Shown here: one piece after another, positions 7,333 to 59,270 of the stretch
Numbering within the stretch: the first letter of the stretch is position 1
How the letters are laid out: every line of letters starts with the position of its first letter
Source of the DNA: Candidatus Altimarinota bacterium
Lineage (GTDB): Bacteria; Patescibacteriota; Gracilibacteria; BD1-5; UBA6164
Assembly (NCBI GenBank): GCA_028697205.1
Contig: JAQVFO010000005.1
Location: 1 to 59,270 of the forward strand
DNA: 59,270 nt
Direction: 5' to 3'
The notes under the pieces: model-generated
What the model saw: the letters and a program-made list of their open reading frames with translations, nothing else
Told to the model about the DNA's origin: nothing
Database searches by the model: none
Translations under genes and position numbers: made by a program

Positions 7333-7484
7333 ATTTTAGATTTATAGTTTTTATTTAATAGGTTAAAAATTTGTAAGATTTTATTTATTTTTTTGTTTTT
7401 TAGAAATTTTTATTTAAATTAATTTTATATTTTTAAGAAATCTTTTATACTATTTTATATAATTTATTTTACAAAAAAAAATTT

Positions 7485-9488
7485 ATGAAAAAAATCGTTT
7501 TATTTTTGATAGCTTTATTTTTATTTTTTATAAACTGTTGAGTATTTGCAGCAGATAAAAAAGTTACTTTTACTTCTTGATGGAATACATTTTCAACAAC
7601 AAATTTATTATCAAACATATCTTTTTCAAATACAACTTGATCTTGATTGTACTTTTTTACTTTAAATAATTGAAAATGGGAAAGAGTATTAGTTTCTACT
7701 TGAACGATTAAACCATTAGATTGATTTATGGTTTATAATAAAAATAAATCTAGTGTAGAAATGACTCTTGATTATAAAAAAAATCTATCACAAGAAGAAG
7801 CTTTATTCTCAAAAAAATTAACTGTTTGATGGAATTTAATATGACTTACAACTATATCTAATCCTTTTTCAGATTTAATTCAAAAAAAATCTATTTTAGT
7901 TGATTTTATATGATTTACTAATTGAATAAAATATTCTATTTATAAATGAGATTTAGATATTCCATTCCAATTATGAAAGTCATATTTGGTTTATATGCCA
8001 CAATCTTGAGTATATAATTGAACTCAAGATTTATTAATTGATACTAAAGATAACTCAAATACTAAAAATTTAGATAATATAATCAATTTAACATGAAGTT
8101 ATTCTTTAGGAGAACAAAGTATAGTTGCTTGAGCAAAAAATCAGAGATTAATAAGTTTTAATATAAAGGCAAATGAGGTTTCTTCTATAAATATAACTCG
8201 TATGAAGTTTACTCAGAGTTGAGATATTTTATCAAATAATATTATAAATATAAAGTTGGTAGTAAATAATATGATTGTTTCTACAAAAAATATGACAACT
8301 TGAAATCCAAACTATCTAGATTTTAATGATATTAATTTTACTATTCCAAAAAACTGAGATGCACAAATAGATGTTGTCGCTGATTTTTCAGCTAATTTAA
8401 CAGGGAATAGTTTTCAATTATTATTATCTTGAGAAAATATTGATGCAACAGATAGTAATTGATTAAAGTTATCATCTTCTAATATAAATTTAAATTCATC
8501 TTGACCTTTATTTACATTTAAAAATAATTGAAATTCTTCACTTAATTTTTCTTCTGATTCTCCAAGTTCTATGGCATTAACTCATTCTTCTACAGGACTT
8601 GTATTAGCTAAATATAATATTTCTGCTAGTTATGATGATTTAAAATTAACTGATTTGTATTTGTATAATAAATGAACTGCAGATTTATGATCAAGTATAA
8701 AATCAATTTCATTGTATGATGTTAATTGAAATAAATTATCATGATGATCTATTTTAGGATCTCAAACTATTTATTTTTCTTTATGAAGTAATTCAAATTT
8801 TGTAATTCCAAGAAACACATCTAATAGTACATTAATAGTTTCAGCAGTCTTTAATGATATAACTGATTCTAGTAAAACTAATAAGACAGTAGAATTAGCT
8901 ATATGAACTTGAAGTTATAATGGTTCTGTTGCTAATTGATATAGTAATTGAGCTGTTTTAGTATCTCAATCAAATTGAAATTATGTGACTAATATGAATT
9001 CATTTTCATCTACAGCAAAATTAAATTTACTTGTTAGGTCATATCCAATTGTTGTAAATGGTGATGCAACATATAGTACTAATACTTTTACGATAACTGC
9101 CGATTCAAATAATAGAATTCAAATAGTTTCTTTGACTTGAACATTGGTTAATCCTATTAATTGACCGACTAATTTTATTTTGTACAAAGATAGACAATTT
9201 AGTGATAATGTGATTGCTAGTGGAGTGCTTCTTCCTTGAACATATGGAGAATTTTATATGAATTTTGCTTATCCAATAGATATATCTGCTTGAACAACTA
9301 AAAAATTTGTTTTAGAATTTTCATGAGCCTCTGGTGTTTCTGTTGATTCTAAAAGAATATTTAGAATTATAGATTTATCATATAATGATATGATGGATAC
9401 AGGAACTCCAAATCAAGTTCTTATTCCTACTATAAATTCATACTATAATGTATGACTTCCAACTGTTGAATCTACTTATATTTATTAA
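7485..9488 (+). CDS. Secreted, beta-rich surface protein of unknown function
   Basis: This 667-residue protein begins with a Sec signal peptide (KKIVLFLIALFLFFINCGVFA, cleavage likely after ..VFAA at about residue 23). The mature part is rich in Ser, Thr, Asn and Gly with repeated beta-strand-like stretches. There is no cysteine-based lipobox after the hydrophobic core and no obvious C-terminal anchor. An early segment (KLTVGWNLIGL, LGKSYLVYMP) resembles the short beta-rich 'GWNLIG..YW' units common in CPR secreted proteins. No catalytic motif was seen. Its neighbours are membrane and pilin-like genes, so a role at the cell surface is a reasonable inference. Confidence 0.75.
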
Positions 9489-9499
9489 TACAATTTTCT

Positions 9500-10429
9500 A
9501 TGGATATATCATTACTTATAACAAATTTTTATGAGCTTTTTTCATTGGCTTGATTGTGAGCTTTAATAACTATCATACTTATAGATATAACAATGAGTTG
9601 AGATAATGCTATAATTATATGAATGGCAACAAAAAACTTACCAAAAGAACAGAGAAAAAAAGCTATATTAGTTGGTATTTTTCTTGCTACTATATTAAGA
9701 ATTATTTTTGCATTTTTAGTAACTTTACTTATGTGAATTGTAGGGATAAAAGTTGCTTGATGACTTCTTTTAATGTATGTTGTATGGAAGTTTTATAAAG
9801 AGGTTAGGATGTGAGAAACAAAAAATGAATCATGAAATAAAGCGTCAAAAACTACATTTTTATCAGCTATATCTCTTATAGTTATGGCAGATATATCAAT
9901 GAGTTTAGATAATGTATTAGCTGTTGCATGAGCTGCAAATGAAAATTTATTTGCACTTTGATTATGATTAATAGTTTCAATTGTTCTTATGGCTATAGCT
10001 TCAAATTATATAGCAGATAAACTTGAAAAATACCCACAAATTCAATGGGTCTGATTATTAGTTATACTTTATGTAGCTTTAGAAATGATTATGGATTGAT
10101 GAACAGATTTTACAAAGGAGTTTTTACCATGAAGTATAGAATTTAGTAAATCATTTATGCCACTTGTTATATTTTTAATATGAGTTTTTTGATTTGTATT
10201 ACATGATAAATATATTACACCAATTGAAAAAATTAAGATTCAAGAATTTATTTGAAAAAATTTTGTATGGGTAATTATTTTAAATTTACTACTTATATTT
10301 TTTATGTGATATTGGGGAGATATGATAAAGAACTTTTTGTTTAGCCATATTTCAATACTTTATACATTTACATTCATTATGTTCTTTATGATAATTGAAA
10401 TTTTAGCAATTTATAAGACAAAAAGATAA
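9500..10429 (+). CDS. TerC/YjbE-family integral membrane protein
   Basis: The 309-residue protein has about eight hydrophobic segments in two halves. Each half carries the TerC-type acidic motif in a helix: DITMSGDNAIII near residue 30 and ADISMSLDNVLAV near residue 130. These paired SxDN motifs are typical of TerC-like transporters, linked to manganese or other metal efflux and to protein metalation at the membrane. It starts 12 bases after the upstream surface-protein gene, so they may share a transcript. The substrate is inferred from the family only. Confidence 0.85.
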
Positions 10430-10432
10430 TAC

Positions 10433-10460
10433 ATAGTCAATTCAAATAATTTGCAAAAGC
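10433..10460 (+). promoter_or_regulatory. Conserved element upstream of pilin-LRR gene
   Basis: The stretch beginning ATAGTCAATT and containing TTTGCAAAA is nearly identical (allowing two inserted bases) to 56301-56330, which sits at a similar distance from the paralogous pilin-like gene. It may be a shared promoter or operator. It starts only a few bases after the upstream stop codon. Confidence 0.5.
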
Positions 10461-10509
10461 ATTAGAGGTTGAGTAAACTTTAAATATTCTTTAATATTTA
10501 AATATTTAT

Positions 10510-12756
10510 ATGAGTAAAGAAACTAAAAGGGAACATCAAAAAGATCAAAAAAAGAAGAAGAAACGTTGATTTACCTTAGTAGAATTAATTGTAGTAATAA
10601 CAATATTAGCAATACTGTGAAGTATAGCCTTCATATCTTTTCAATCATACACAAAAAATGCAAGAGATGGACAAAGACTGTCAGATATAAATAATATAAG
10701 AAAAAACCTAGAACTATTCCTAACAGAGAAATGATTCTACCCAACACCAGATAATTGAGTAAATATAATATATAGCTGAGCAACAGCATGGATCCAATGA
10801 ACAGTGTGAGACAATGTAATAAAGAACCTACAGAAACTAAATAAGAAACCAACAGACCCACTAACACAAAATGAATATACATATAGTATAACAAACCTAA
10901 AGACAGAATACCAAATCTGAGCAATACTAGAATGATGAAGTATACTATGATATAACAAACTAATAAACCAAGCCAATGCAGCTACACCACTAAAGAAAGC
11001 AACAGCTATGGTAGTATGAACATACAATGAAAAGATACTAAGAGTAAGTACATGATGATTAGATTATGTATTAGCAGTACCAAGTATAATCAATTGAGAT
11101 ATCCAAGATGTAGACTTAATGGATATAATAAACAAGAAACAACTAGTATACAACAACTATACAAACCTACCAGACTCATATAAAAACCTATGATATAGTA
11201 TGACTTGATGATTTGATTATACTCCAACTAATATAATAGTATATACAGGATCAATATTAGATATAACACAAGATACAAAAAAACTTGTATTTATAGATAA
11301 TTTAAAGAAATCATATAGTTGAACAATTTTATCAACAGATATAACATATAAAGAAATAATAAATTCAGATACGACAACTAATCAAACTTGAGCTGTTGAA
11401 CTAGTTAATAATTATTTAGCTAATTGAGTATGATGATTACCAAAAATTATTATTACTACTCAAGATACTCAGCAATCACAAGTTACCTCTCCACCACCTA
11501 CTTGATGTAGTTTATCTCAAACTGACTTAGATAATTTAAATAATAATTGAACTAATTGAAATATACAAGTTTATGATTTACTAACATATACTCCTTTTAC
11601 ATTTCCAATGACAACTGAGCAATGGTGTAATAATAATAACTATCTTATTTGGTATTGATGAAGTAATGTTTTACAAGAAATATTTAAACTATCTTATTTA
11701 AAATATTTAGATTTATCAAATAATTGAATAACAACATTACCAACTGGAATATCATGATTAACAGGTTTAGCTTATCTTTGATTATCAAGTAATCAATTAA
11801 CAATAATACCTTCAGAAATATGAAGTTTAGCAAGTTTGAATTTTCTTGATTTAAGTAATAATCAAATATCATCTCTTCCTCCAGAAATATGAAATTTATC
11901 AAATCTACAATTTATAACTTTAGATCATGATAATTTAACATCATTACCAACAGAAATCTGAAATTTAACAAGTCTAATTAATTTACGGGCTCCTTATAAT
12001 CAAATAACAACAATTCCAAGTAGTATTTGAAATTTAACTAATTTAGCGTGATTATTACTGAATGATAATCAAATATCAACAATCCCTACAGAAGTATTTA
12101 ATTTAGTTAATTTACAAAATATAACTTTAAATAATAATCAAATAACAACATTACCAAGTGGGGTTTGAAATTTAACTAATTTAGTTTCTTTATGATTATG
12201 AGGTAATCTAATATCTGCAATACCAAGCACTATTTGAAATCTAACTAATTTACAAGATTTGTCTATGAGTCAAAACAATTTAACATCATTACCAACAGAA
12301 ATTTGAAATTTAACAAGTTTAAAAACTGTATATTTGTCTAGTAATCAAATATCTGCATTACCAAACAGTATTTGAAATCTAACTAATTTGCAAGGTTTAT
12401 GGCTTCAAATTAACCAAATAACAACATTACCAACAGAAATATGAAATTTAATTAATTTAAAAAAATTATATATTTCTGGTAATAATTTAACAGTATTACC
12501 AAGTAGTATTTGAAATTTAACTAATCTTACTGAATTTATGATTTGATCAAACCAGTTTACAACATTACCAGGGGAATTAGTAAATTTATTAAGTTTAATT
12601 TATTTTGATATTGGTAATAATACATGATTATGAAATATTCAGGATAGTTATAATATTTCTAGTCCAAGTAAATCACAATCATGAATTCCTACATCATGAC
12701 AAACAATGACCATATGATGAGATTGAACTAGAGTAGTAATAACAGTTACTCCATAA
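10510..12756 (+). CDS. Type IV pilin-like protein with a leucine-rich-repeat C-terminus
   Basis: The 748-residue protein opens with a short basic leader (KKKKKRG) and a class III signal/methylation site G-FTLVELIVVITILAILG, with the conserved Glu at position +5. The helix is followed by a globular pilin region to about residue 300 (SYTKNARDGQRL, KKPTDPLTQNEY). A low-complexity linker with PPP follows. Residues about 394-705 hold 13 full 23-residue LRRs plus a partial one, of the LxxLxLxxNQITTLPxxIGNLTN type. LRRs of this class bind proteins. The family is exported by the type IV pilus or type II secretion machinery. The N-terminal 230 residues are closely related to the gene at 56375. A binding role on the surface is inferred. 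Confidence 0.88.
11692..12620 (+). repeat. 69-bp tandem repeats encoding 23-residue LRRs
   Basis: About 13 units of 69 bases lie in phase with the pilin-LRR gene. The DNA is similar between units, notably the segments encoding GNLTN and LPTEIG, which suggests expansion by unequal recombination. Confidence 0.85.
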
Positions 12757-12778
12757 TTTTAAATTTAATAAATAAAAA

Positions 12779-13204
12779 ATGAATAAAGTATATATAATTT
12801 TATTTACATGAATTTTTTTAATATCTTGTTCTAATATTAATAATAATAGTCAGGAAGTAAATAAAACACAAGATAACATAAATCAAAAAGTAGAAAAAAA
12901 TAATGAAAATACTACTTTAGATAATGGTAAATGAATAGAAAACATAAATGTTGTAAATAAAAAAATACAAGAAAATATTTTAAAGGATTCAGATAATAAA
13001 TATAAAGATTTATTTAAAAGATTAGATGATGCAAAAATAGCTAATGATCTTGAAGAACAAAATAAAGTTATGGATGAAATAAAGAAATTACAAGAAGAAA
13101 AAAGAAAAGAATTAGATATTGCAGTAAAAAATTGAGATGAAGAAACTGCAAAAAAAATAAGGAAAGAAATGGTAATATTTAATACATTAAATTTCCCTAA
13201 TTAA
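12779..13204 (+). CDS. Small putative lipoprotein with charged helical domain
   Basis: The 141-residue protein has a lipoprotein signal: MNKVYIILFTGIFLISC, with the lipobox LISC putting the lipidated Cys at residue 17. A Ser/Asn linker follows, then a Lys/Glu-rich region from about residue 60 to the end (KRLDDAKIANDLEEQNKVMDE..) that looks like a long helix or coiled coil. It follows the pilin-LRR gene by 22 bases and is closed by a strong terminator, so the two may form an operon. No known family was recognised. Confidence 0.7.
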
Positions 13205-13210
13205 TTAAAA

Positions 13211-13256
13211 AAATAAACAAAAAAATCAAATTTAAATTTGATTTTTTTGTTTATTT
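13211..13256. terminator. Strong palindromic terminator
   Basis: A near-perfect 46-base palindrome (AAATAAACAAAAAAATCAAA and its complement) follows the lipoprotein stop by 6 bases and ends in a T-rich arm. It separates the pilin-LRR unit from rpoBC. Confidence 0.85.
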
Positions 13257-13268
13257 TAATACAATTTC

Positions 13269-13321
13269 GCCAAGCACTACTTTCGAATGAGTTATTCCGG
13301 CAAAAAGTAGGGCAATTTTTT
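13269..13321 (+). promoter_or_regulatory. GC-richer structured leader upstream of rpoB
   Basis: GCC/GGC and CTACTTT/AAAGTAG arms enclose an 18-20 base loop (CGAATGAGTTATTCCGG) and are followed by TTTTTT. It is markedly richer in G and C than its surroundings and sits about 120 bases before the rpoB ATG. It could be an attenuator-type hairpin or the end of a short leader RNA. A purine-rich run (AAGGAGGATAAAGG) follows at about 13346. Confidence 0.45.
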
Positions 13322-13439
13322 GTGTAATATAAAGTTTAAGAGATAAGGAGGATAAAGGAACAAGACTGAGTTGTTAAAAAGTATTTTTTCTAAATCTTAA
13401 ATTCGTAATTTTTAATTTTCTAATTCTAAACTTAATTTT

Positions 13440-16980: not shown

Positions 16981-20997
<4,017 letters not shown>

Positions 20998-20999
20998 TA

Positions 21000-21034
21000 A
21001 AAAAACCCAAAATCATATGATTTTGGGTTTTTTT
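21000..21034 (+). terminator. Terminator of the rpoBC operon
   Basis: The inverted repeat AAAACCCAAAATCA / TGATTTTGGGTTTT with a TT-rich tail starts 3 bases after the rpoC stop. Confidence 0.85.
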
Positions 21035-21124
21035 ATTATTTGATTTTTCCATTTACGAGTTTTAATTGCAAAAAAAATAAAAGTAATTAAACTTTTAATA
21101 ATTAATCTTAATAATTTATTTTAT

Positions 21125-22315
21125 ATGATTTCTTATAAAGTTAAAGCTTTTACTCTTGTGGAGTTAGTAGTATCACTTACAATAATAACTATTTTATGAA
21201 TTATTTGATTTGTTTCATATCAGTGATATATATATGGAGCTAGGGATACAAATAGATTAAGTCAATTAGCGGCAATATATGATTGACTTGAAACATATAA
21301 AACAAGAAATTATTTACCACTTCCAGAAAATAATATTTCAGTTTTAGCTAATTGATGAATTGTATGATATCAGTGATATATGTGAAAAAATAATTTAGAA
21401 ATTATATCTTATAATAAGTGATGAATAGATCCTAAAGATAAAAATTACTTTACATACTATGTTACGCAAGATAAAAAATATTTTCAGTTATTAGGATTTT
21501 TAGAAGACATATCAAATAAACAAGTTTTTAAAAGTCCTCTAAATAGAGCTACAGCATTTGACTATTCATCAAGGTTTCCAGTTGTAATTTGAAAAAAATT
21601 ATGAATACTTACTGAAAAGGATACAAATACTCCAATTCAAGATATAAATAGTATTAAATCAGCATGATTCTTAGATATTTGACTTACTACAAATGAATAT
21701 ACAGCTCATTATAGTGATACTTCTAGTATTACCTGAGATAGTAGTGTACTTATAAAAACTTTGTATAATTCAAGTTGTAAAAGATTAAAGGAAGCATGAT
21801 GTAGTGAATGAGACGGATTATATGTTATTGATCCTACTTGAAATAATCCTTTTCAAGTTTATTGTGATATGAGTATTGATTGATGAGGTTGGACTTTGGT
21901 TTGAAGAAGTGTAAAATCATGAACTTGATCTTTTTGATTTAGTTCTGAAGTTTGAACTGCTCAAAATGATTCTTTAGTATATTCTTTATGAAAACCTGAT
22001 TTGGATTTTAGTGAAATCTTATTTTGAGATTATGTATATTGAAAAACTTGGTGATCTCAAGTTTTTAAAAAGATTTGACAATTTACTGCAACAACTTCAT
22101 CAAGTATGCCAACAATAGAAGTAAAATGAACATGTATTACATGATTTACAAAATTAAAATATGCATGATATAAAAATAATAATTTAAATTTCTTTTTGTC
22201 TCCAAATTGAACTATAAATACATCAATTTGATTATTGGCATGATGATTTGTAACGTGAAATTGATGTTTATGATGAAATATAGATTGAAAACAATGAATG
22301 ATATTTATAAGGTAA
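21125..22315 (+). CDS. Type IV pilin-like protein with fibrinogen-like C-terminal domain
   Basis: The 396-residue protein starts MISYKVKAFTLVELVVSLT, a class III prepilin-type helix with FTLVEL, although the residue before F is Ala rather than Gly. Residues about 40-215 form a pilin-like head (YKTRNYLPLPENNI, GYQGYMGKN, DPKDKNYFTYYVTQ) that is paralogous to the gene at 37842. From residue about 218 the sequence reads CKRLKEAGCSEGDGLYVIDP, then QVYCDMSIDGGGWTLVGRSV: the YxIDP..xVYCDM..GGGWT pattern is that of fibrinogen-related (FReD/COLFI-like) domains. Such domains bind sugars or proteins. The residue content of the ligand site could not be checked. Confidence 0.8.
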
Positions 22316-37760: not shown

Positions 37761-37797
37761 AAAAAATACAAGTGGATTTTCTACTTGTATTTTTTTG
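37761..37797 (+). terminator. Terminator after the acidic protein gene
   Basis: AAAAATACAAGT / ACTTGTATTTTT arms with a GGATTTTCT loop and a T-run. Confidence 0.8.
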
Positions 37798-37841
37798 TTA
37801 TTTATTATAATTACCTATATACTTTAATAATTATAATAATT

Positions 37842-40421
37842 ATGAAAAAGAAATTATTAGGATTTACATTTGTTGAGTTAATGATAGTTGTTACGATTAT
37901 TATTATTTTAACTTCTATTTGATTTGTATCTTATACTAGTCAATTATGATGAACTAGAAATACAAAAAGAATATCATATCTAACTAATGTTTATGATTTA
38001 TTTCAAGTAGAAAAAGATAAATGACAATTACCACTTCCGGATAAATATATCCAAATATCTTTTTCATGAGAAGTTTTATGATATCAATGATATTTATCTT
38101 GATGAATACTCAAAGGTTTAAATATAAAAGATTATTTATGAAAAGATCCAAAATACTGAGATTATTTTACTTATTATTTAACTAAGAATTGAAGGTTTTT
38201 TGAATTTATGTGATATCTTGAGGAGGAAACATCATGAGTATTTCCAGTATCAAAAGTTTATGCAAATATTACAAATTATTCTAGACCAGTACTTATATGA
38301 GATAATATTTGACTTATTACAGACAAAACTACAAATAAACCAATACAAGACTTATATTTATGAAACATTGATTTTAAAACATCATCTTGAGCATTTGTCT
38401 TGAATGTTAGTGACTCAATTAAATTAGAGTGAGATAATTTGACATTGTGAATAAAAATGAAATATATGTCTATTAATTGAACTTTATATTGAGTTTGAAA
38501 TTGTACTTTAGATTGAAAAAATATTATTGAATGAACATCTGTTACAGCATATACTTGATCATCAATTGCTTATAATGCTGCATATAATTGTATTGATATA
38601 AGCCAAGTAAGAACATGTAATAATTGAGTATTAAGTTGAAGTGATATCTATAAATATTCAACATGTAAGAAATGAGATTGAATTACATGTTTAGCTACTC
38701 CATCATATTTATATAACTCACATACTTATTCAATTCCATTGTTAAACCATTGACAAGTTGCATGAAATATTATATCAGCTAATGTATATGAAAATCATTG
38801 AGTTTTTAGATATACTTTATCAAATATTCAATGTAATGATTGAGTTTATATAAATCAGAGTGAGAATGTAACACCAACTGTTATTAGTTGTGATACTTGA
38901 TATCAAGAAATTTGAAACTCTTGTTTACCATATGTAAATTGAGCATGTACGAATTTACCAACATGATGATGGTTTTATAATTCATCAACAAGTTATAGTT
39001 TGGTAAATGCACCAAATTGAACAACTTTAGATGCTACTATTGCTTGATATAATGATGCTCCAACACAAAATACTTGTCAATATAAATGTGATAGTTTGCA
39101 TTATTGGAATTGAAACTCTTGTTTACCATATGTAAATTGAGCATGTACAAATTTACCAGTTTGAGCGTTGTTTTATAATTCAACAACAAGTTATAGTTTG
39201 GTAAATGCACCAAATTGAACAACTTTAAATGCACTTACTGCAGGGTACCAATCAATACCAACACAAAATACTTGTCAATATAAATGTGATCATTCTCAAT
39301 ATTATTGGAGTTGAAGTGCTTGTATTCCATATACAAATTGAGCATGTACGAATTTACCAACATGATGATGGTTTTATAATTCATCAACAAGTTATAGTTT
39401 GGTAAATGCACCGAATTGAACAACACTTGATGCTACTGTTGCTTGACATTATGAACCTCCTACTATAAATACTTGTAGATATAAATGTGATAATTTACAT
39501 TATTGGGATGGTAATAATACATGTATACCATATGTAAATTGACCATGTACAAATTTACCTGAAAATTCAAACTATTATAATTCAACAACAAGTTATAGTT
39601 TGGTAAATGCACCAAATTGAACAACACTTGATGCTACTGTTGCTTGATATAATTTAACTCCAACACAAAATACTTGTCAACGGAACTGTCAACCTTGATT
39701 TGTTCAATGATGATGAGTTTGTTGATATTTAATATCAGCTTGTCCTTCTGCAAATTCTGCGACAAATGGTACTATTGCAACAAAAACAATGATATTATCA
39801 AATATAAATAATTATATTTGATGTACTGTTTCATCTTTTTCTTGAATTGTTGCATGAATTACTTATAGTTGAAGTATTTCTAGTTGAAATAAAATGGTTT
39901 TACTTGCATATCCATCTGATGAATCAGTTACACATGATTGGTGAAGTAACTGAACTGATATTGCTACTATGACAAATTTTGTTTCATCATTAGATACTTA
40001 TGTTAATATAGAATGATGGGATTGATATAGTAATAATATGAAAATTACAACAAAATTAACAGAGTTGTGAGAAACTAATAAAGCTGCCCAAATATGTTGA
40101 TCAAAAACATTTTGATGACAAATATGGTATTTACCTTCTTTAGAAGATTTAAGACAATTATATTGTTATAGTAATCAAGCTTCAATTTTTGATACATATT
40201 ACTGAGCTTGAAATTCAAATTATTCTGATTGTGTAAATAAATGATACAGTTCTTCAAAGGTATGAACTTTAGGTTCATTTAGTGCAACTTGGTATTGGTC
40301 TAGTAACGAGTATTCTTCAATATATGCTTGGCCAATTAATATAACAAATTGAAGAATATTATATTCTTGATTAGCAGGTAAATGAACGGTTTGAAGAGTT
40401 CGTTGTACTAGTAGATTTTAA
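37842..40421 (+). CDS. Type IV pilin-like protein with Cys-rich repeats and DUF1566-like C-terminus
   Basis: The 859-residue protein begins KKKLLGFTFVELMIVVTI, a prepilin peptidase site (G-F, Glu at +5) and helix. The head to about residue 180 is paralogous to the gene at 21125 (LPLPDKYIQ, GYQGYLSGG, KYGDYFTYYLTKNG, TDKTTNKPIQDL). Residues about 358-622 contain four units of about 66 residues with conserved Cys positions (SCLPYVNGACTNLP .. YSLVNAPNGTT .. QNTCQYKCD). The last 200 residues end with WYLPSLEDLRQLYC, YWSSNEYSS and VRCTSRF, the pattern of DUF1566/Lcl-type domains. An adhesive surface role is inferred. It is flanked by terminators. Confidence 0.85.
38913..39690 (+). repeat. Four ~200-bp tandem repeats in the Cys-rich pilin gene
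   Basis: Units begin at 38913, 39111, 39312 and 39510 (198, 201 and 198 bases apart) and are highly similar at DNA level, e.g. the segments encoding SYSLVNAPNGTT. Recent unequal duplication is likely, so copy number may vary between strains. Confidence 0.85.
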
Positions 40422-40424
40422 TAA

Positions 40425-40460
40425 TAAAAAAACTTGGAAAATTTTCCAAGTTTTTTTATT
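40425..40460. terminator. Bidirectional terminator between pilin gene and ileS
   Basis: AAAAAACTTGGAAAA / TTTTCCAAGTTTTTT palindrome between convergent stops. Confidence 0.85.
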
Positions 40461-43400
40461 ATTTTTTTAGACTTAATTTTATTTTATATTCCTCTAATTC
40501 TATTTCTTTTTCAAAATCAGATTTTTCTAGATTTTCAACAATAGTTGATAAAGTCTCAGTTTGTATATATTCCTTAAAATTATTTGTAATACTTTTTATT
40601 TTATCTCATCAATTTATACTAATTTGAATTCTATCATCTACATTGAAGTTTGCTTCTTTTCTTGATTCTTGTATATGTCTTATTAAGTCACGAGCAAATC
40701 ATTCTTGTATAAGTGCTTCTGATAAATTAGTATCAAGTGATACTACCATACCAAACCCGCTTTCTAAATCTCATATTAATTCAGATTTTTCATAAGCTAT
40801 TTCATATTCTCATTCTTCAAGTACAAAATCTCATACTTTTACTTTTCATCATTCTAGTTCTTCAAAATTTCAGACTTTAGCTTCAGCTATGATAAACTTA
40901 ACATCTCATCAAAATTTTGGTCATATAAGTCTAGCATTTGGTTTACATATTTTTTTAGGCATTTCTGATTCACTAAAATACAAAACTTCTTTTATATTTA
41001 ATTCATCTTTTATAATATCCAAATAATAATCATCAAGTACTTCTGAAATTTTTATTGATTTCAGAGGTTGTCTAACTCTTAGACGATTTCTTTCTCTACA
41101 AGCAAGTCATAAATTGATTATTTTAGCAGTTTTATCAAAACTTGAATTTAGATTATCAAGTATAAAAGATTTGTTTGCAGTAGGGAATATATCAAGATGA
41201 ACTGATTCTTTTCAAGTTAAATTTTTGTAAATATATTCAGATACAAATGGCATAAATGGAGCAAGTATTTTTGACAGTTCAATCAAAACTTCATAAAGAG
41301 TTTCATAAGCTTCAGTTTTATCGTTGTCAAAATTTTCTTTCCAGAATCTTTTTCTTGATCTTCTTATATACCAGTTTGTTAGATTGTCCATAAATAAAAC
41401 AATTGGCCTTGCTGCTTCATTTATTTTATAACTGTCTAAATTTGTAGATACTTCAAGAATAAGTTTATTTAGTTCTGAAATAATCCATTTATCAAGTATA
41501 TTTTCTCTTGACGTAGGCATTTTAAAAATAGTTGCATTTGGGATGCTTGGTAAATTAAAATTAGCTTCCTCAAAATCTATATTATTTATGTATCTATTTA
41601 TTGGCCTATAAGTACCACTATGAGCTACAATTAATACATTTTTTCAATGAAATTTTTCTTTTATTTCTTTTACTAGACTAGTAACCCTTTCATCAAAGAG
41701 TTTTATATCTTCAGCTTTGTTGTATTTTACATCTTTAAAAAATTTTCTTGTTTGCTCTATTTCTACTAATTCTATATTTAATTCTTTTTTTGCATAATTT
41801 CTTATTTCTTCATGTGTCATTCATGAAAATATTCAAGCTTTTAACTCTATTAGTCTATCATCTTCTATTATGTCTCAGTTGAATCAATTTTCTTTTGCAA
41901 TAATTTCAGCAGTTTTTTTAGCTCTTTTAAGAGGTGAAGAGATTATTATATCAATTTTTTCTTTAGATAATTTAAAGTTCTTTCAAGCTTTTGTTGCTTG
42001 TTCTAGTCAGATTTCATTTAGTTGTGTATCTACTTCTCATCAACTCATTTTCAGCGTATTGTTGTCATTTGTTTTTCCATGTCTACAATAATAAATATTT
42101 CATTTTTTAGGTTCAAATTTGTCTATATTTGCATAAGTTGTGAAAAAACTATAAGTATTCCAAAGTGGTAAAATTACTTTTTTAACTACTTCTTCAACTC
42201 ATGTTTCACTAAATCTTAAGTCTTGTGCTTCTACTACTGGTGAATTCATTAAGTAAAATCTCATAGCATCAGCTCCATAATTGTCAAAAATCTTTTGTGG
42301 ATCTGGATAATTTTTTAAAGATTTACTCATTTTTTTACCATCTTCAGCAAGAACTATACCATTTACAATAGTATTTAATGTTGCTGGTGAATCAAAAAGA
42401 GCAGTAGAAAGTATGATAAGTGTATAAAACCAACCTCTAGTTTGATCTAGTCATTCTGCGATGAAATCAGCAGGGAAGCGGAAGTTTTCTTTATTTTCAA
42501 AAGGATAATGTCTACTTGCATAGGGCATAGCTCAACTTTCAAACCAACAATCTAGAACTTCAGGAATTCTTTTTAAAGGAGATCAATTTTTTACTATTGA
42601 CTCTATTAAATTACATTCATGTAAGTTAAAATGTCAGTATCAGTTAACATAAATTAAATTTGCATTTAAGATTTTTGCTAATTCTTCTGCTTCGTCATTT
42701 CTTACAACTGTATCATCTTTTGATGTTAAAACTATAATTTCTTTTACTAAATTTTTTATTTCACTAAATTCATGTGTCATTTCAGAGTAAAATTTAGTAA
42801 TTTCTGGTTTTCAACTTCATTTTATTGCTGGAGCAACTAAAACAAGTCTGTCTAGTTTTATTTTATGTTCTGCAATGTATTCAATACTAGCTCTACATCA
42901 CATAGAGTGAGCTAAAATAGTATCATAATTTTTTAAATTTATTTCATCAAATTTTTTTGCCCAGTTTTTATATGAAACATTTGCTCATTCTTCAAAAGTC
43001 GGAGCAAACATTTTTACTCATTCTTTTTCTAGATTTTTCTTTGTTCATTCAAAAAAGTCAACCAAAGTTTCAGGATTCCTTTTAAATCCATGAACTCAAA
43101 GTACATTTTTAGCTTTTAAATTCTTTTCATTTTTTATAAGTAATTCATCAACAAAATGTTTGTGTAGGTCTACTTCTTGTAAAGTATTAGAATAAACATA
43201 TGCTACATCAAAATTTTCTTTTGATGGATACATTTCTTTTCTAATATTTTTATTATCAAAATCAAAATCTTTTATTACTTTTTTTGCAAGCAATAAAGGG
43301 TCTCAATGTGAACAAATAAGTATTGTTTTTCATTTGTTTTCAGAAACAATTTGAGTCATAAAATCTTTTATTCTATCATAACACTCAACTTGTGATTCTC

Positions 43401-45663
43401 ATGTTTCTCAGATTTTTTCATTATTAAACTTATTTTCCCAATTAATTGCTTTTCAATCATATTTTCACACATTGATTTCCCTTAATCTCTCATCAATATT
43501 TATTTCTTTTCATGAATTTTTTGAGATTGTTTCTACAGTTTGTAAACATCTTTTAAAAGGAGATGAAAAAATAACATCAATTTTTTCATTTTTTAAAATT
43601 TCAGCTAGATTTAATGCTTCTTGTTTTCATTTTTCAGATAGAGAATATTTATTTGGATCTACACAATCTTCAATTCATAAAACGTTTTTTTCTGATTCTC
43701 TATGTCTTACTAAAAGTACTTTAGTGATTTGTCAAAAATCTTTATTTTTTTCATATAGTTCTTCAATTGAACCTACACAGATTTCTTCTTTTTTGTCTTC
43801 TGATTGCCAAATAGGAAGAGCAGATCACCAATATCTGTTCCTACTAATATTCCAATCACGAGCTTGTTCCAGCCATTTTCCAAATCTACCATCTTTTATT
43901 ACTTCTGGTACCCATGTTATTTTTTGGTTATTTGCAACCATTTTATCTCTTATCTTTTCAACAGCAACATACCAAGCTGAAATACCTCTATAAATAAGAG
44001 GAGTATCACATCTCCAACAATGAGGATAAGAATGAACTATTGTTCAGATATTTATTGATAATTTTTTTTCTTTTAATTCTCCAATTACCATTTCATTGAA
44101 ATCAAATACAAATTTTCAATTATTATCCAGTAAATTATATGTTTTACCAGAATTGTCTATATGTGCTACAAATCATAAGTCTTCTTTTTCTCAGATAATG
44201 AAATCGTCTTCTCAGTAAGCTGGGGCTATATGAACTATTCAAGTTCCGTCTGTAGTTGTTACATGATGTCATAAAACTATTGACCAAGCATTTTTTCCTA
44301 AGCAAATTCCAGGTCATAAATCTTTTCACATTTCATTTATTTGCAAGTCAAAATCATCAAATATTGGTTCATATTTTATTCAAACTAGACAAGCTCATTT
44401 GTATTCTCTGACTATATTATAATCTTCTTCTTTTTTGTAATAATCTTTTACTTTCTCTTTAGCTAAAATATAAGTGTCACCATTTGTTTTATCAAGTAGT
44501 TCTACATAATCTATATCAGATCAAACAGCGAGTCATAAGTTAGCATATAAAGTCCAAGGAGTAGTAGTCCAAGCAAGTATATATTTATTTCAATTTGTAT
44601 GAAATTTGTTAATTTCTTTTTCTCATTTTAATTGGGCAATTATTTGATGATCATATGATTCTACTTCTTCATTTTTTAATTCATTTAAATCATAAAATTT
44701 CCAATTTTCAAATTTATTTTTTTCAGGATTTCAGAAAGTTACATCATTTTTAACATCTAATATATAAACATATTCTTTCCAGTTTTCATTATTGTGTTTA
44801 CTATAGTTGCAAGTGTATAATTCTAGTTTATCTGATTTAATTCATGTTTCTTCTTCTAATTCTCTTTTTGCACAATTAATTGGAGTTTCTCATAACTCAA
44901 TTTTTCCTCATGCTAAAGTTAAAAGTCAGTTAGTTTTTCTTTTTCAAAAAAGTATTTTTCAGTCTTCATTTCTAACTATTATTCAAGTTGATTCTTTATA
45001 GCAAATATCTTGTTTATCTGATTTTACTTTAAATTTAACTGTAACAGTTTTTGATTGTTTATCCTTATATCATTGATTTACTTCGAAGTTTGAAAGGGGA
45101 GTAGTACAACGAGGACAATAAGGTACAACTCTATTTCCTTCATAGATTAATCATTTATCATATATATTTTTGAAAACCCGCCAAACTGATTCCATGAAAG
45201 AAGTATCCATAGTTTTATAATCATTTTCCATATCAACCCATCTTCACATTCTATCTACTGTTTTTTTCCATTCGTCGACATATCCAAATACATTTGCTCT
45301 ACATGTTTCGTTGAATTGGTAAACTCAGATTTTATTTTCTATGTCATCTTTTCCTGAGATTTCTAGTTTTTTTTCTACTATGTTTTCTATAGGTAATCAG
45401 TGACAATCCCAACCAAAATTTCTCTCAACTTTTTTTCATTTCATTGTTTGGTATCTTGGAATTACATCTTTGATAGTACCTGCTAATATGTGTCCATAAT
45501 GAGGAGTTCAAGTTGCAAATGGAGGACCATCATAGAAGTTGAATTCTTCAGCATTATCTCTAGTGTTTATAGATTTTTTAAATGTGTCATTTTCTTTCCA
45601 GTAATTTAGGATTTCTTCTTCAAGTTTTGGGAAAGATTGTTTTGGGTTTACTTTTTGGAACAT
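40459..45663 (-). CDS. ileS: Isoleucyl-tRNA synthetase with four inserted enzyme domains
   Basis: The 1734-residue protein has a complete IleRS: HYGH at residues 55-58, WTTTPWTL in the CP1 region, [16 protein letters not shown] after residue 1033, KMSKS at 1111-1115 and the anticodon-binding domain ([12 protein letters not shown] from about 1389). A normal enzyme is about 1030 aa; the excess is four insertions. (1) Nudix, about 205-355, with a perfect box G253..E..REL..EE..GI. (2) Histidine phosphatase, about 646-825: R653-H654-R-E-S and a second His786 in SHGD. (3) Alpha/beta hydrolase, about 852-1026: HGF, nucleophile Ser920 in HSMGC, His1011 in GYGHF. (4) Histidine phosphatase, about 1189-1382: R1194-H1195-G and His1348. 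The frame is unbroken across all joins. Domain 3 replaces a zinc-finger loop. Functions of the inserts are inferred. Confidence 0.93.
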
Positions 45664-51560: not shown

Positions 51561-54158
51561 TTGGAAAATTTTGAAAGACAAAATCAATTAGAAACTACAA
51601 AAAATAATGATTATAGACAAGAAACTTTTTCAAATCTAAATCAAATGTTAAATTCACTAAAAAAATGAAATGTTTCAAATGAAAAGTTGGAACATATTAT
51701 TGATTATGTATGGAAACTTGCTGAAATAGAAACAAAGTATTGAAAGATGAAAGATGAGATAAGAAAAGATGTAAGATTTTTTATAAAATCATCACTTTGA
51801 GATTTACTTTATTCACATTTATGAGAGTACAATATTAAAAAATTTGATATAGATTGAAAAATTTGAATTGATAAAGTAGAAGAGGATAACTATTGAAAGT
51901 CAATTTGAGAAGCTGTTAATCAAATGATAATTTTATGATGACTTAAAAATTTTTCAAAAGTTCATTATAATTCTACAAAAGAAGATACTGTAGAATGGAT
52001 TGCTAATAAAGTAAGTTTAGAAAAATATTTATTATGAGAAAAGTGAGAGAAACATTTTGCAGAATGACTTATTCAAAAAGTTTGAAGTATAAGTGAATCT
52101 GAATTAAAGACTATGCAAGATAATAAATTTAATATTACATCATCACAAAGTAGAAAAGAATTAAGTATATTACTTGCTAAGGAGTTTTGAGATTGAGTTG
52201 AAGATGTTTTAAGATTTATATGAAATATTCCATCATGAATTATACTTTTTCCTCGTTATGCAACTTATAGAACAGAAATAAACTCTGATGATCAAATTAC
52301 AAAAACAAAAGCTCAAATTAATTTAGATGAATTAGTTCAAAAAAATCCTTCTCTTTGAATTTTGGAAATACTTTGAGAAAAATGACTTGAAATTTTAAAA
52401 AATCTTTGAGAAATGCTTACAAGTTGAAAACAATGAGATATAGCAATGATGATGGTAACGATTGCATGAATGATTGCATGATGAGCATGACTTGCAAAAT
52501 TTGGATTAAATATTGCTAGAAAAAGTGCAATTAAAGAAGCTAGATTGGCATGAAGAGAGGCAAGAATTTCTTGACAAACTATTTCAAAAGAAACAAGAAA
52601 TGGAATAAAAGGTACTTCACAAAAGGCATGAAAAGTTGCTGAAGTGGCATGAAAAGTTGATGATATAGTTTGATGAGCTGGAGTATGACATATAACAGGA
52701 GCTTATTCTACTGGACTTACTGATAAATTAAAAGAGAAATGAAAAAATTTCTTAAATTCAATGTGAGAGACAATTGCAGATACTACAGAAAATTATCTTA
52801 AAAAACAATGACTTGTCATGTGAGTAACAGAGGATATGAAATGGTTTTGAGAAACTATTGAATTAAAATCATGACAAAAGATACAAATAACAAGAAGTGA
52901 TTTGAGTCAACAAGAAGTAACAGTTTGAATTATAAGAAATGATTGAAAAATACTAGTAACTTGGGAAGAAAATTGAAATGAAATGCAAAAATTAGTTAAT
53001 CAAAGTTCTGCTTTATATACATGAAAGAAGATACAAATAACAAGAAGTGACTTAAGTCAACAAGAAGTAACAGTTTGAGTTGTAAGAAATGATTGAAAAG
53101 TATTAGTAGTATGGGAGGAAAATTGAACTGAAATGCATAGAATAGTTGACATTAATGATACAGTTTGGATTTGAAAGAAAGTACAAATAATAAGAAAAGG
53201 TTGAAAAATTCAGAATGCAACTATATGAGTTTCAAGAAATGATTGAAGTTTAATGGTTACTTGGATGGAATGATGAGAGGAAAAAATAAAAATTGTATCA
53301 AAAGAAGATTTAGTAAAAAAGTGAGATCTTGTTCCAGAAAAAATAATTGATACAGCAAAAACAAAATTAGATATTCCTGAAGATGTACTTAAAAAATATC
53401 CGTTTATAGAAAACTATAGAGAAAATATAGAATATTATTTTAAAAATTGAGAATTTAAAGAAAATGACATAATTTGAGAATGAAATTATTGATTGGCAAT
53501 TAGAATTCCAAATTGAAAAGTATTAAAAATAGCAAAAACTGAAGAATGAGCTAAAGCTCTAAAGCAAGAAGTAAATAATCAAATATTATTTTATAGAGCA
53601 GTTGAAAAATTAAGAACACAATTATGAAATAGCCTTGTTCCAGATTGGTTTAAAATACCACTTGTAGTTGAGTGTCCAATAAAAAATAAGAATAGTTGAT
53701 ATTATTCATTTGAAATGGAAGAAATAGTTTGAAATAATTTATTATCATACTTAGTTAGGGATGAGATATGAAAAAAATGATTAGATTTACCTTTATTAAC
53801 TTCAGATCAAATACTAGAAAAACAATATGAATTATTAATTTGAGAAGATATTGATAAATTGAGAAATTGATATAATATTGATATTTGACTTGATTGAAAA
53901 AAATTTGAAAAAGCAGTTGCTAAATGACAAATTAAGTGAGTATGAGTTCCTTTTACTTCATATTTATTTAGTAAATATTTTCCAGAGAAGTATGAAATAG
54001 TAGCAAATATTTTATATACATTAAAGAAATGAGGGTATATTCATAATGATTTGCATAGTAAAAATATTATGATTTGAGAAAGTTGAGATATTTATGTAAT
54101 TGATTTTTGAATAGTTGATGTTCCAAAAATTGATATGCAAAAACTTTTAAATGAATAA
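51561..54158 (+). CDS. Multidomain protein with C-terminal protein kinase-like domain
   Basis: The frame encodes up to 865 residues. The start is a TTG at 51561, just after in-frame stops; the first ATG is near 51646. A helical N-terminal region (1-290) is followed by a Gly/Ala-rich hydrophobic segment (MMMVTIAGMIAGGAGLAKFGLNIARKS). Three repeated 43-58-residue SH3/KOW-like units follow at about 435-585 (KIQITRSDLSQQEVTVG, VRNDGKVLVVWEENG). The C-terminal 280 residues show kinase motifs: GEGNYG loop, VLKIA lysine, a QEV helix, catalytic loop HNDLHSKN, and IDFG metal-binding motif. Activity as a kinase is likely but untested, and the substrate is unknown. Confidence 0.75.
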
Positions 54159-56300: not shown

Positions 56301-56330
56301 ATAGTCAATTTAAAAAGTTTGCAAAAAAGC
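56301..56330 (+). promoter_or_regulatory. Conserved element upstream of the second pilin paralogue
   Basis: Almost identical to 10433-10460 (ATAGTCAATT then TTTGCAAAA and GC). It lies 45 bases before the ATG at 56375, versus 50 bases for the first copy. Confidence 0.5.
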
Positions 56331-56374: not shown

Positions 56375-59270
56375 ATGACAAAAAATATTCATGCAAAATT
56401 AGAAAATGTAGTAAAAAAGAAGAAAAAAAGATGACTTACATTAGTAGAATTAATAGTAGTAATAACTATATTATCAATTTTATGATTAATAGCATTTATA
56501 AGTTTTGAGTCATATACTAAAAATGCTAGAAATTGAGTAAGAATGGCAGATTTAAATAATATAAAGAAAAATTTAGAATTATTTATTATTGAGAAATGAT
56601 TTTATCCAAAGCCAGATAATTTAGTAAATATAACATATAGCTGAGCGGTAGCATGGACTCAATGAACAGTATGAGATAATTTAATAACAAATTTACAAAA
56701 AATAAGTAAGAAACCAACAGATCCATTAACACAAAATTAATATACATATAGTATAACAAATACAAAAACAGAATATGAGTTATGAGCAATATATGAATGA
56801 GGAGTATCATTATTATGATATGAAACTCCATTGTTAAAGAAAGCAAATGCAGCAACAAAAACTGCATTAGCTATGATAACTTGAAATTATAATTGAAAAT
56901 TTTTAAAAGTAAGTACATGATGATTAGATTATATATTGGCTATTCCTAGTATAATAAATTGAGATATTCAAGATGTAGATTTAATGAGTTTAATTAATAA
57001 AAAACAATTAGTATACAACTTACCAGATTCATACAAAAATTTATGATATACTATGACATGATGATTTGATTTTATACCATGAAGAGATATAGTAATTTTT
57101 AGTTGAAGTATGCTTGACTTGTCTAGTAGTTGATTTATTCAACAGCAATTTATAACAAATCTTCAAACAGTATATAGTGGAAGTATTTTATCAAATGATT
57201 CTGAAATAAAACAAATAACATAAGCAATTACTCCAGAATTACAACAAACTTTATTGGTAAATTATATGAATAACAATGTTTGAGGTCTTTTTTGAGTTCC
57301 AAATATTTCTTTATTAGCTCAAAATAATACTCAAATACCAGAAGCTCAATGTTGATTATCAAATTGAAGTATTTTTGATGTTACTCCGACTGATAATTTA
57401 TGTTCTTTATGAAATCCAAGTTCTGTAACGTATGATTGATCTAAGTATAATTGGAATTGTGATTGATGATGAGTCATTGCTTTTTGTAGCGCATATAAAA
57501 ATACTTGTCCAAATGAAAATAAATCATGACTAATATGATGAGTATATTATATAAGTACTAGTGATGATTTAGTAAAATTATCAAATTGAACTTATCCAGC
57601 AAATTGAACTTATGTTCAAACAAAAAGTATAGATATGAATTGAATAAGTTTTAATCCTATACTAAATTTTGCATGAACATATGATGGAGAACATTGTTCA
57701 ATATCAAATTTAGTTTTAAATAAATCTTGAGTTAGTAGAGTTTGATTTTTTTGAAGTACCGTAGCATGAGTTACATTGAAAAATATATACTTAAAAAATT
57801 TAAATGTAACTTGATTAAGTGCAGTTTGATGATTGTTATGATATGCATATACTGGGAATAATATTTTGAATAATATAATAGAAAATGTGACTGTAAGTTG
57901 ATGATGATCATATATATGATGATTAGTATGAGAAATGGATTGAACAGTAAATACATCAATAGTAAAAAATAGTTATTTAAAATGATGAACTGTTTCATGA
58001 GTTGCAACTGTATGATGATTAGTGTGACGGGAAAGATATGGTTGAGAGGTATCATATAATTTAGTAATGATAGATTCAATAATAAGAACATCATGAACAA
58101 ATACACAATTTTGAAGAGTTATGTGACAACTTTCATCATGATGACCTTTGAATTATAACTATGCAAATACTAATATGACATCATCTGTAGCAGTGGTTCC
58201 ATGAATAACAATAAAAGATTGAGCAAGTACAGATTGAAGTACAGATATGCAAAGATGTCTATGAGTAAATACATATATAGCAATACCAACATGGAGTTGA
58301 GATTGAACTCAATGAAATCCATACTTAGTATCATCATTAGAACATTTATGTTATATAACAAGATTTAATAAAAGTGCATATTATAAACAAACACAAGATA
58401 TATCACTATCTTGAATAAGTAATTTTATGCCAATATGAATGAGTGCAACAGATGCTTTTGCATGAAAATATAACTGAGATAATAAACAAATATTATGATT
58501 AAATATGAACTATCCAGTAGATGATAATATATGATTATTTTGATATATATCTAATAATGTAATATTAGAAAATATAAAGATAAATAATGCAAATATAGTA
58601 TGAAATAATGATACGGCTGCACTGGTATGACTATGATGAGATTCAAATACAATACAAAACTTAAGTTTTACAAATATATATTCAACATGAGCTAGTAATG
58701 TATGATGATGAGTATGAAAAATTTGATTAAGTTCATTAATAAAATGAGTACATATTCAAACTTGAGATATAAAATGAGTTTATGATAACATATGATGATT
58801 GGTATGATACACAAATACTTGAAATAATGTGTCAAATAATATAATAGAAAGTGTAAATGTAACATGAAGAGCAGATATATGATGATTAATTTGAGAAACA
58901 GATTGATCTCCAGTTACAGCAATAATAAAAAATAATTATATAAAGTGATGAGATATTTCATGAATATCAGTTGTATGATGATTAGTGTGACGGGAAAGGT
59001 ATGGTTGAGATACATCATATAATTTAGTAATGGTAGATTCAGTAGTTAGATTATCATGAACAAATACACAAATTTGAAGGATAACATGACAGGTATCATT
59101 TTGATGAACATTGAATTATAACTATGCAAATGCTAATATGACGTCATCTGTAGCAGTGGTTCCATGAATAACAATAAAAGATTGAGCAAGTACAGATTGA
59201 AGTACAGATATGCAAAGATGTCTATGAGTAAATACATATATAGCAATACCAACATGGAGTTGAGATTGAA
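56375..59270 (+). pseudogene. Type IV pilin-like GLUG-repeat protein with two in-frame TAA codons, 3' end outside window
   Basis: The first 121 codons give a pilin N-terminus (KKKKKRG-LTLVELIVVITILSILG, SYTKNARNG, KKPTDPLTQN) that is paralogous to the gene at 10510. TAA at 56738-56740 replaces the GAA of that paralogue, and a second TAA is at 57221-57223. The same frame is otherwise open for about 2.9 kb to the window end. The downstream part contains GLUG-type repeats (VGGLLGYAYTGNN, IGGLVGEMDGTVN, VGGLVGRERYGG), typical of beta-helical surface proteins. Possible readings are a recent pseudogene, a truncated 121-aa pilin plus a separate ORF, or sequencing error. I favour a decaying or phase-variable surface gene. 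Confidence 0.7.
58181..59270 (+). repeat. Direct repeat with 963-bp period (GLUG module)
   Basis: 58181-58307 appears identical, base for base, to 59144-59270 (offset 963 = 321 codons). Flanking stretches from about 57930 and 58890 are similar but diverged. Gene conversion or recent duplication is likely, and the repeat continues past the window. Confidence 0.8.

Follow-up and report, generated by a model that had tools for sequence, protein, structure and literature searches.

What does a gene that joins the N-terminus of a type IV pilin to a long array of leucine-rich repeats (LRRs) do in a gracilibacterium, and how did it come to be there? Such a gene lies at 10510-12756 on the forward strand of the window studied here, the 59,270 bases that form the start of the 87.6-kb contig C14 in the genome of a Candidatus Altimarinota bacterium (1.27 Mb, 19 contigs, 99.1% complete). 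The initial annotation, made from the window alone, described a class III prepilin N-terminus fused to 13-14 LRRs and proposed that it was a direct host-recognition device. The gene product is probably a modular type IV pilin, whose LRR part is one adhesin from a renewable repertoire displayed on a common carrier, a pilin head of about 310 aa called head A. The sequence read from the genome consisted of selected stretches, 561 kb of loci including overlaps.

UGA is read as glycine in this genome (code 25). Under this code 10510-12756 is a single open reading frame (ORF) of 748 codons, 52 of which are TGA, and no such ORF was obtained by translation with table 11. The prepilin peptidase site lies between G20 and F21 (10567-10572, forward strand), with KKKKKR-G before the cut and FTLVE after it, or, at greater length, KKKKKRG followed by FTLVELIVVITILAILG. 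The Gly at -1 is itself encoded by TGA (10567-10569) and Glu stands at +5. The short hydrophilic leader ending in Gly is followed by a hydrophobic helix, and Pfam N_methyl was matched at aa 15-41 (E 3.2e-9). The pilin module follows (10570-10929, forward strand), which in the AlphaFold model has the long N-terminal helix (aa 23-74, as helices 23-45 and 49-74) and the beta-rich domain of a pilin fold, with four strands between aa 81 and 137; a weak Pfam match to T2SSG (GspG family) was also found in the head. The latter half of head A (from about aa 141 to aa 310; 10930-11439, forward strand) is conserved in the family alignment, and its predicted local distance difference test score (pLDDT) was mostly below 50 for aa 143-242. 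When the model of the head alone was searched with Foldseek, weak matches to PilE, PilA1 and PulG were returned, none of them significant. A flexible linker and a pre-LRR cap (11440-11691, forward strand) come next, with pLDDT below 50 at aa 305-334, and the pre-LRR region is about 38% identical to that of a second LRR protein, encoded on contig C17.

The LRR solenoid (11692-12588, forward strand) is composed of exactly 13 consecutive repeats of 23 residues without any indel (aa 395-693), built on LxxLxLxxN units and modelled mostly at pLDDT of about 72-89. The initial annotation had counted 13-14 repeats; the 14th is a decayed unit that lies with the C-terminal tail at 12589-12753 (forward strand). 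Pfam LRR_14 was matched after the head in the same ORF (E 3.9e-51), so that the protein has the two parts by which modular pilins are defined, a pilin module and a C-terminal domain that is not specific to pili (PMC8179133). The fusion as such was thus read correctly from the window, and what had been missed was the second head region of about 170 aa, the linker, the other pilin fusions of the window and the gene family described below. The LRR part resembles solved LRR structures at 4e-20, the nearest folds being Leptospira LRR proteins, then SHOC2 and internalins. Leptospira LIC10831 (PDB 4u06) shares the LRR fold with a TM-score of 0.78 by target and 40% identity, but the Leptospira proteins stand alone, whereas the LRR here is carried on a pilin. 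Within the repeat, variability peaks at positions 4, 5, 7, 9 and 10 (2.2-3.1 bits, against 2.0 bits or less at the other positions), and these positions form the concave beta-strand face.

The initial annotation had made its proposal depend on counterparts of PilB, PilC and PilD elsewhere in the genome, and a type IV pilus system was indeed found there: seven matches to PilB/PilT-type ATPases (PF00437), eight to the platform protein domain of PilC (PF00482) and a single A24 prepilin-peptidase candidate (C12:93688; PF01478, 27.4 bits with a cut-off of 26.5), in whose translation both catalytic Asp regions are visible. It had also suggested a search for pilin-LRR fusions in other Gracilibacteria, and these recur in five related genomes, G002 (two), G020, G026, G032 and G033. 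Because the machinery, a peptidase candidate and recurring fusions are all at hand, we infer with good support that a type IV filament displays the LRR on the outside of the cell. Another possibility, to which we give a minor chance, is that the prepilin-like N-terminus serves as a membrane anchor or as a pseudopilin of a secretion system, by which the LRR would reach the surface without a retractable pilus. The head's weak match to GspG, a passenger larger than the pilin module, and the annotation of large GspG-like proteins as pseudopilins in a closed Gracilibacteria genome (PMC6851277) would fit such a role, but PilB/PilT-type ATPases and PilC-type proteins are encoded in the genome, and modular pilins elsewhere are assembled into type IV pili (PMC8179133).

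The pilin-LRR gene is not special in its genome. N_methyl was found at 36 places, many of them at contig ends, and the pilins were separated into two alignments, head A (about 310 aa) and head B (about 200 aa). At least 17 genes carry head A, joined to different C-terminal passengers. Both head and passenger were present at eight loci (one of them, C14:56375, is interrupted by two stops), nine further heads are cut short by the end of a contig and nine passengers come in at such an end, so that 18 of the 38 contig ends fall inside head-A genes. LRR passengers occur on C14 and on C17, the latter behind a head-A end; three passengers are LamG, and Fibrinogen_C, a right-handed beta-helix and a Reg_prop propeller were found once each, with some further passengers matching no assigned type. 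Fib_succ_major was recognised twice at Pfam level, and four more tails are called Fib_succ_major-like from their BLAST similarity to one Pfam-positive tail. Every LRR, LamG and Fib_succ_major match in the genome falls on a head-A gene. In this genome (G000) a Cys-rich spacer of 54 aa, whose copies are 77-87% identical, is joined to LamG or to Fib_succ_major-like ends, both of which are also found without it.

The interrupted copy is the second head-A gene of the window (56375-59270, forward strand, continuing to about 60140 of contig C14). In-frame TAA codons stand in its head at 56738-56740 and 57221-57223, yet 972 further codons are open and encode a large passenger, in which no Pfam match was found. 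It may have become a pseudogene recently, or it may serve as a silent donor from which its passenger is copied. The window also holds two head-B pilins, one with Fibrinogen_C (20987-22315 or, with a later start, 21125-22315, forward strand; Pfam and head-B alignment) and one with Cys-rich repeats and a Lcl_C-like domain (37785-40421 or, with a later start, 37842-40421, forward strand; head-B alignment). At least six head-B genes exist in the genome, which therefore has two carrier families.

The DNA of the head suggests how it came to carry so many passengers. From about aa 20 to aa 235 the head of the pilin-LRR gene agrees with as many as ten other copies at mostly 90-100% identity, which falls to 60-75% at the head end, and none is left in the LRR. 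Exact matches of 31-255 nt to up to about ten genome copies lie in 10607-11165 (forward strand). The longest, 255 nt at 10783-11037, is shared with the C8 copy and has lower identity on both flanks, and other head segments match best elsewhere (183 nt to C16, 138 nt to C1, 127 nt to C4). A runs test covering 528 polymorphic sites, which ignores rate variation along the gene, gave 116 consecutive shared sites for the window and C8 copies (P 0.0001) and P >0.05 for most comparisons with diverged copies. Head stretches of 90-100% identical DNA also occur between copies with unrelated passengers. Taken together, these patterns support exchange between head-A genes.

Since short-read assemblies can misjoin exact repeats, the relative G021, a single contig of 1,343,103 bp, was checked. 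It has 32 head-A matches, among which the heads at 206653 and 227604 are 95% identical in protein and 94% in DNA and carry unrelated passengers; where the head ends, identity falls from 86% to 46%. Because such heads occur in a single contig, the modularity does not stem from misassembly. For the pilin-LRR gene itself, an LRR tail misjoined to a repeated pilin head by assembly or binning is very improbable: the exact head repeats of up to 255 nt and the many contig ends in head-A genes would invite such an error, but at the junction (aa 235-330) the LRR is attached to head-A sequence that has diverged and is unique, C17 has another LRR passenger following a head-A end, and pilin-LRR fusions exist in the five other genomes.

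The same modular pilins could also have multiplied by plain duplication and divergence with no ongoing exchange, purifying selection keeping the heads alike and ordinary mutation or one-off fusions supplying the passengers. As this explanation predicts, head identity is higher between genes with homologous passengers than between others, 59 vs 40% in G021 and 64 vs 49% in G002. It is nevertheless an unlikely account, as it does not sit well with 255 nt of exact identity including silent sites between less identical flanks, with 94% DNA identity of heads bearing unrelated passengers in G021, or with a Cys-rich spacer common to two different terminal domains.

Passengers could in principle be generated by a diversity-generating retroelement (DGR) or drawn from silent cassettes, as in Neisseria pilE/pilS. 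Domains resembling the Fib_succ_major-like passengers are known as DGR targets. The only reverse transcriptase match in the genome, however, is a Drt4 defence enzyme, and a DGR origin was rejected on this ground, template and variable repeats not having been searched for. Silent headless cassettes of the LRR, LamG and Fib_succ_major types, such as pilE/pilS has, are absent from the genome, because all matches of these types sit on head-A genes. Either source of passengers is consequently held to be hardly probable. The Drt4-type gene itself is found on contig C11 at about 14 kb (L307; PADLOC, 5.5e-124), where it adjoins a DnaK fragment.

Most head-A genes also share a leader. A box of 24 nt, AGTCAATTCAAATAATTTGCAAAA, stands upstream of the pilin-LRR gene (10435-10458, forward strand) and a second copy at 56303-56326 precedes the interrupted gene, both located by a weight-matrix scan. 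With the consensus GTCAAYYTAAAAT-TTTGCAAAA, the box lies 72-94 nt upstream of the start codon in 12 head-A genes, those outside C14 being on C1, C3, C4, C7, C8, C11, C12, C13, C16 and C17. It is present as well at the end of contig C5, just where a head-A gene would start, which suggests one further head there, and the C6 copy is preceded by a variant with one extra base. In the scan of the 561 kb, the 13 best matches were the 12 upstream boxes and the C5 end (24-34 bits), and the best unrelated match reached 17 bits. In eight leaders the box is followed by a perfect or near-perfect 12-bp hairpin and a T-run. Across 12 leaders, nine of the 12 hairpin pairs were changed on both sides, giving a covariation score of 0.545 (0.06-0.19 when slid). 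The pilin-LRR leader retains the box, its hairpin being weak or degenerate, and no Rfam family was matched at 10300-10600. The element is a candidate attenuator, promoter-operator or recombination site.

Among relatives, head A was found in 55 of 60 genomes, often in 10-40 copies each. At a strict threshold, 33 genomes out of the 242 of the class had it, comprising all 28 listed from the source family and one genus of the sister family; on this sampling head A is restricted to one Gracilibacteria family and part of its sister family. In named records, relatives of this protein family come from metagenome-assembled genomes of Candidatus Gracilibacteria. In the source genome the pilin-LRR gene sits in a stretch of 6.1 kb between mltG and rpoB (7333-13439), together with a secreted protein without Pfam match, TerC and a small lipoprotein. 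Neither the gene nor the stretch was present at this place in the eight relatives whose interval was read, the gap being about 280 bp in G001 of the same genus. These relatives having no gene there, no ortholog with another passenger came from this locus, and its position is evidence of a recent gain in the source genome.

The domain architecture, the pilus machinery, the multigene family, the mosaic heads, the switching of passengers and the common leader are observed directly, and from them a sequence of steps can be proposed. The prepilin peptidase would cut the pilin-LRR protein after Gly20, and the N-terminal helix would then enter a type IV filament as a tip, minor or interspersed subunit, with the flexible linker keeping the 13-repeat solenoid outside the cell. 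The variable concave face would bind a partner; the likeliest one would be a protein of the cell to which the gracilibacterium attaches. At the level of DNA, homologous recombination or gene conversion between near-identical heads would homogenise them and join them to different passengers, and with a common upstream element before most head-A genes the family would act as a renewable repertoire of adhesins. Host adhesion would fit this scheme, and the role as a direct host-recognition device put forward in the initial annotation is plausible.

Several points weigh against this interpretation. The second head half was modelled poorly, also when the head alone was given to AlphaFold with 15 sequences (pLDDT 52), and the sole A24 peptidase match is weak. 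The runs test does not allow for rate variation, in G021 and G002 related passengers are more frequent among pairs of similar heads, and the conservation of the heads could partly reflect duplication and purifying selection. The ligand of the LRR could equally be self, matrix or glycan.

Host recognition by ultrasmall epibiotic or predatory bacteria of the Candidate Phyla Radiation (CPR) is an open question, and the head-A pilins offer a concrete candidate set for it: one genome has at least 17 of them, in which a common carrier bears different binding modules, and almost every relative sampled from the family has such pilins. They would also explain assembly breaks in this lineage, where about half of the contig ends are concerned here, and the 15 oddly large GspG proteins of a closed relative. 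If passenger swapping is active, host range could change by a route that uses the pilin itself as recombination handle. In a more far-reaching and less probable reading, a family of Gracilibacteria might use combinatorial adhesins borne on pili, in which a carrier pilin present in 10-40 copies per genome, its copies held near identity by recombination, captures and swaps binding domains (LRR, lectin-like, fibrinogen-like, propellers) at its 3' end, with expression coordinated by the leader and shifts in host or prey range as the outcome.

Some other genes were recorded besides the pilins. An isoleucyl-tRNA synthetase of 1734 aa (40459-45663, reverse strand) contains four inserted extra domains by Pfam, a NUDIX, two histidine phosphatases and a serine hydrolase, which is very unusual among aminoacyl-tRNA synthetases. 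At 51561-54158 an 865-aa protein with repeated short beta segments and a kinase-like C-terminal domain is encoded, and a small ORF follows. The end of C6 (L040) and the start of C18 (L078) both break within a tandem repeat encoding KAPTTAPTIPQQTPSA-like 15-mers of a large, intracellular-looking protein, another repeat gene that breaks the assembly.

As for known systems, one entry to compare is IPR026906, which we take to be the BspA-type LRR. It is included, with FISUMP and FecR, in the 15 commonest architecture entries of a survey of modular pilins, which covered more than 1,200 proteins and 264 architectures with a Gracilibacteria example among them (PMC8179133). Because LRR-type architectures are already listed there, the pilin-LRR protein belongs to the known modular pilins. 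PilB and PilC of S. sanguinis likewise combine a class III prepilin N-terminus with a small pilin module and a bulky binding module, and a modular pilin bearing vWA is an adhesin that binds host proteins (PMC8179133). In contrast to the surveyed proteins, a single head of about 310 aa recurs here within one genome at no fewer than 17 loci and is followed by different passengers; its DNA is mosaic and near-identical between copies, spacers have been shuffled, and the genes have a leader of their own. A parallel is the CPR epibiont TM7x of Saccharibacteria, in which the minor pilin PilX2 carries an extra binding domain, a C-terminal RCC1 beta-propeller, and is needed for normal host binding, its deletion lowering bound host cells from 10.6% to 4.6% (PMC12206443). 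RCC1 passengers are likewise found on head A in G021, but of the 12 putative pilins of TM7x two have added domains, and they include neither a homogenised multigene family nor an LRR (PMC12206443). The closed 1.34-Mb Gracilibacteria genome has 15 'large GspG' proteins of 528 aa on average, which were reported as an intriguing count, with passengers, modularity and exchange not described there (PMC6851277); they are probably the head-A family.

Three systems with variable parts are also comparable. PilV of IncI shufflons joins a constant pilin N-terminus to a C-terminal adhesin that varies and determines which partner cell is selected (PMC9045228), but it is varied by site-specific inversion at one locus, whereas the head-A genes are dispersed over many contigs, an Rci-type recombinase not having been searched for. 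In Neisseria pilE/pilS, recombination among pilin copies also makes mosaics (PMC4023411), yet silent partial genes supply the variable part in that system, while in head A it is the constant head that recombines. Rhs proteins, which are unrelated, share the arrangement of a constant N-terminal core with a replaced C-terminal part (PMC2935791). In a search from which subscription journals were mostly absent, no report was found of a single homogenised carrier whose passengers are exchanged, whose spacers are shuffled and whose genes have a leader in common. The pilin-LRR protein thus joins the known class of modular pilins as a new member, and the shared, homogenised carrier is its new aspect.
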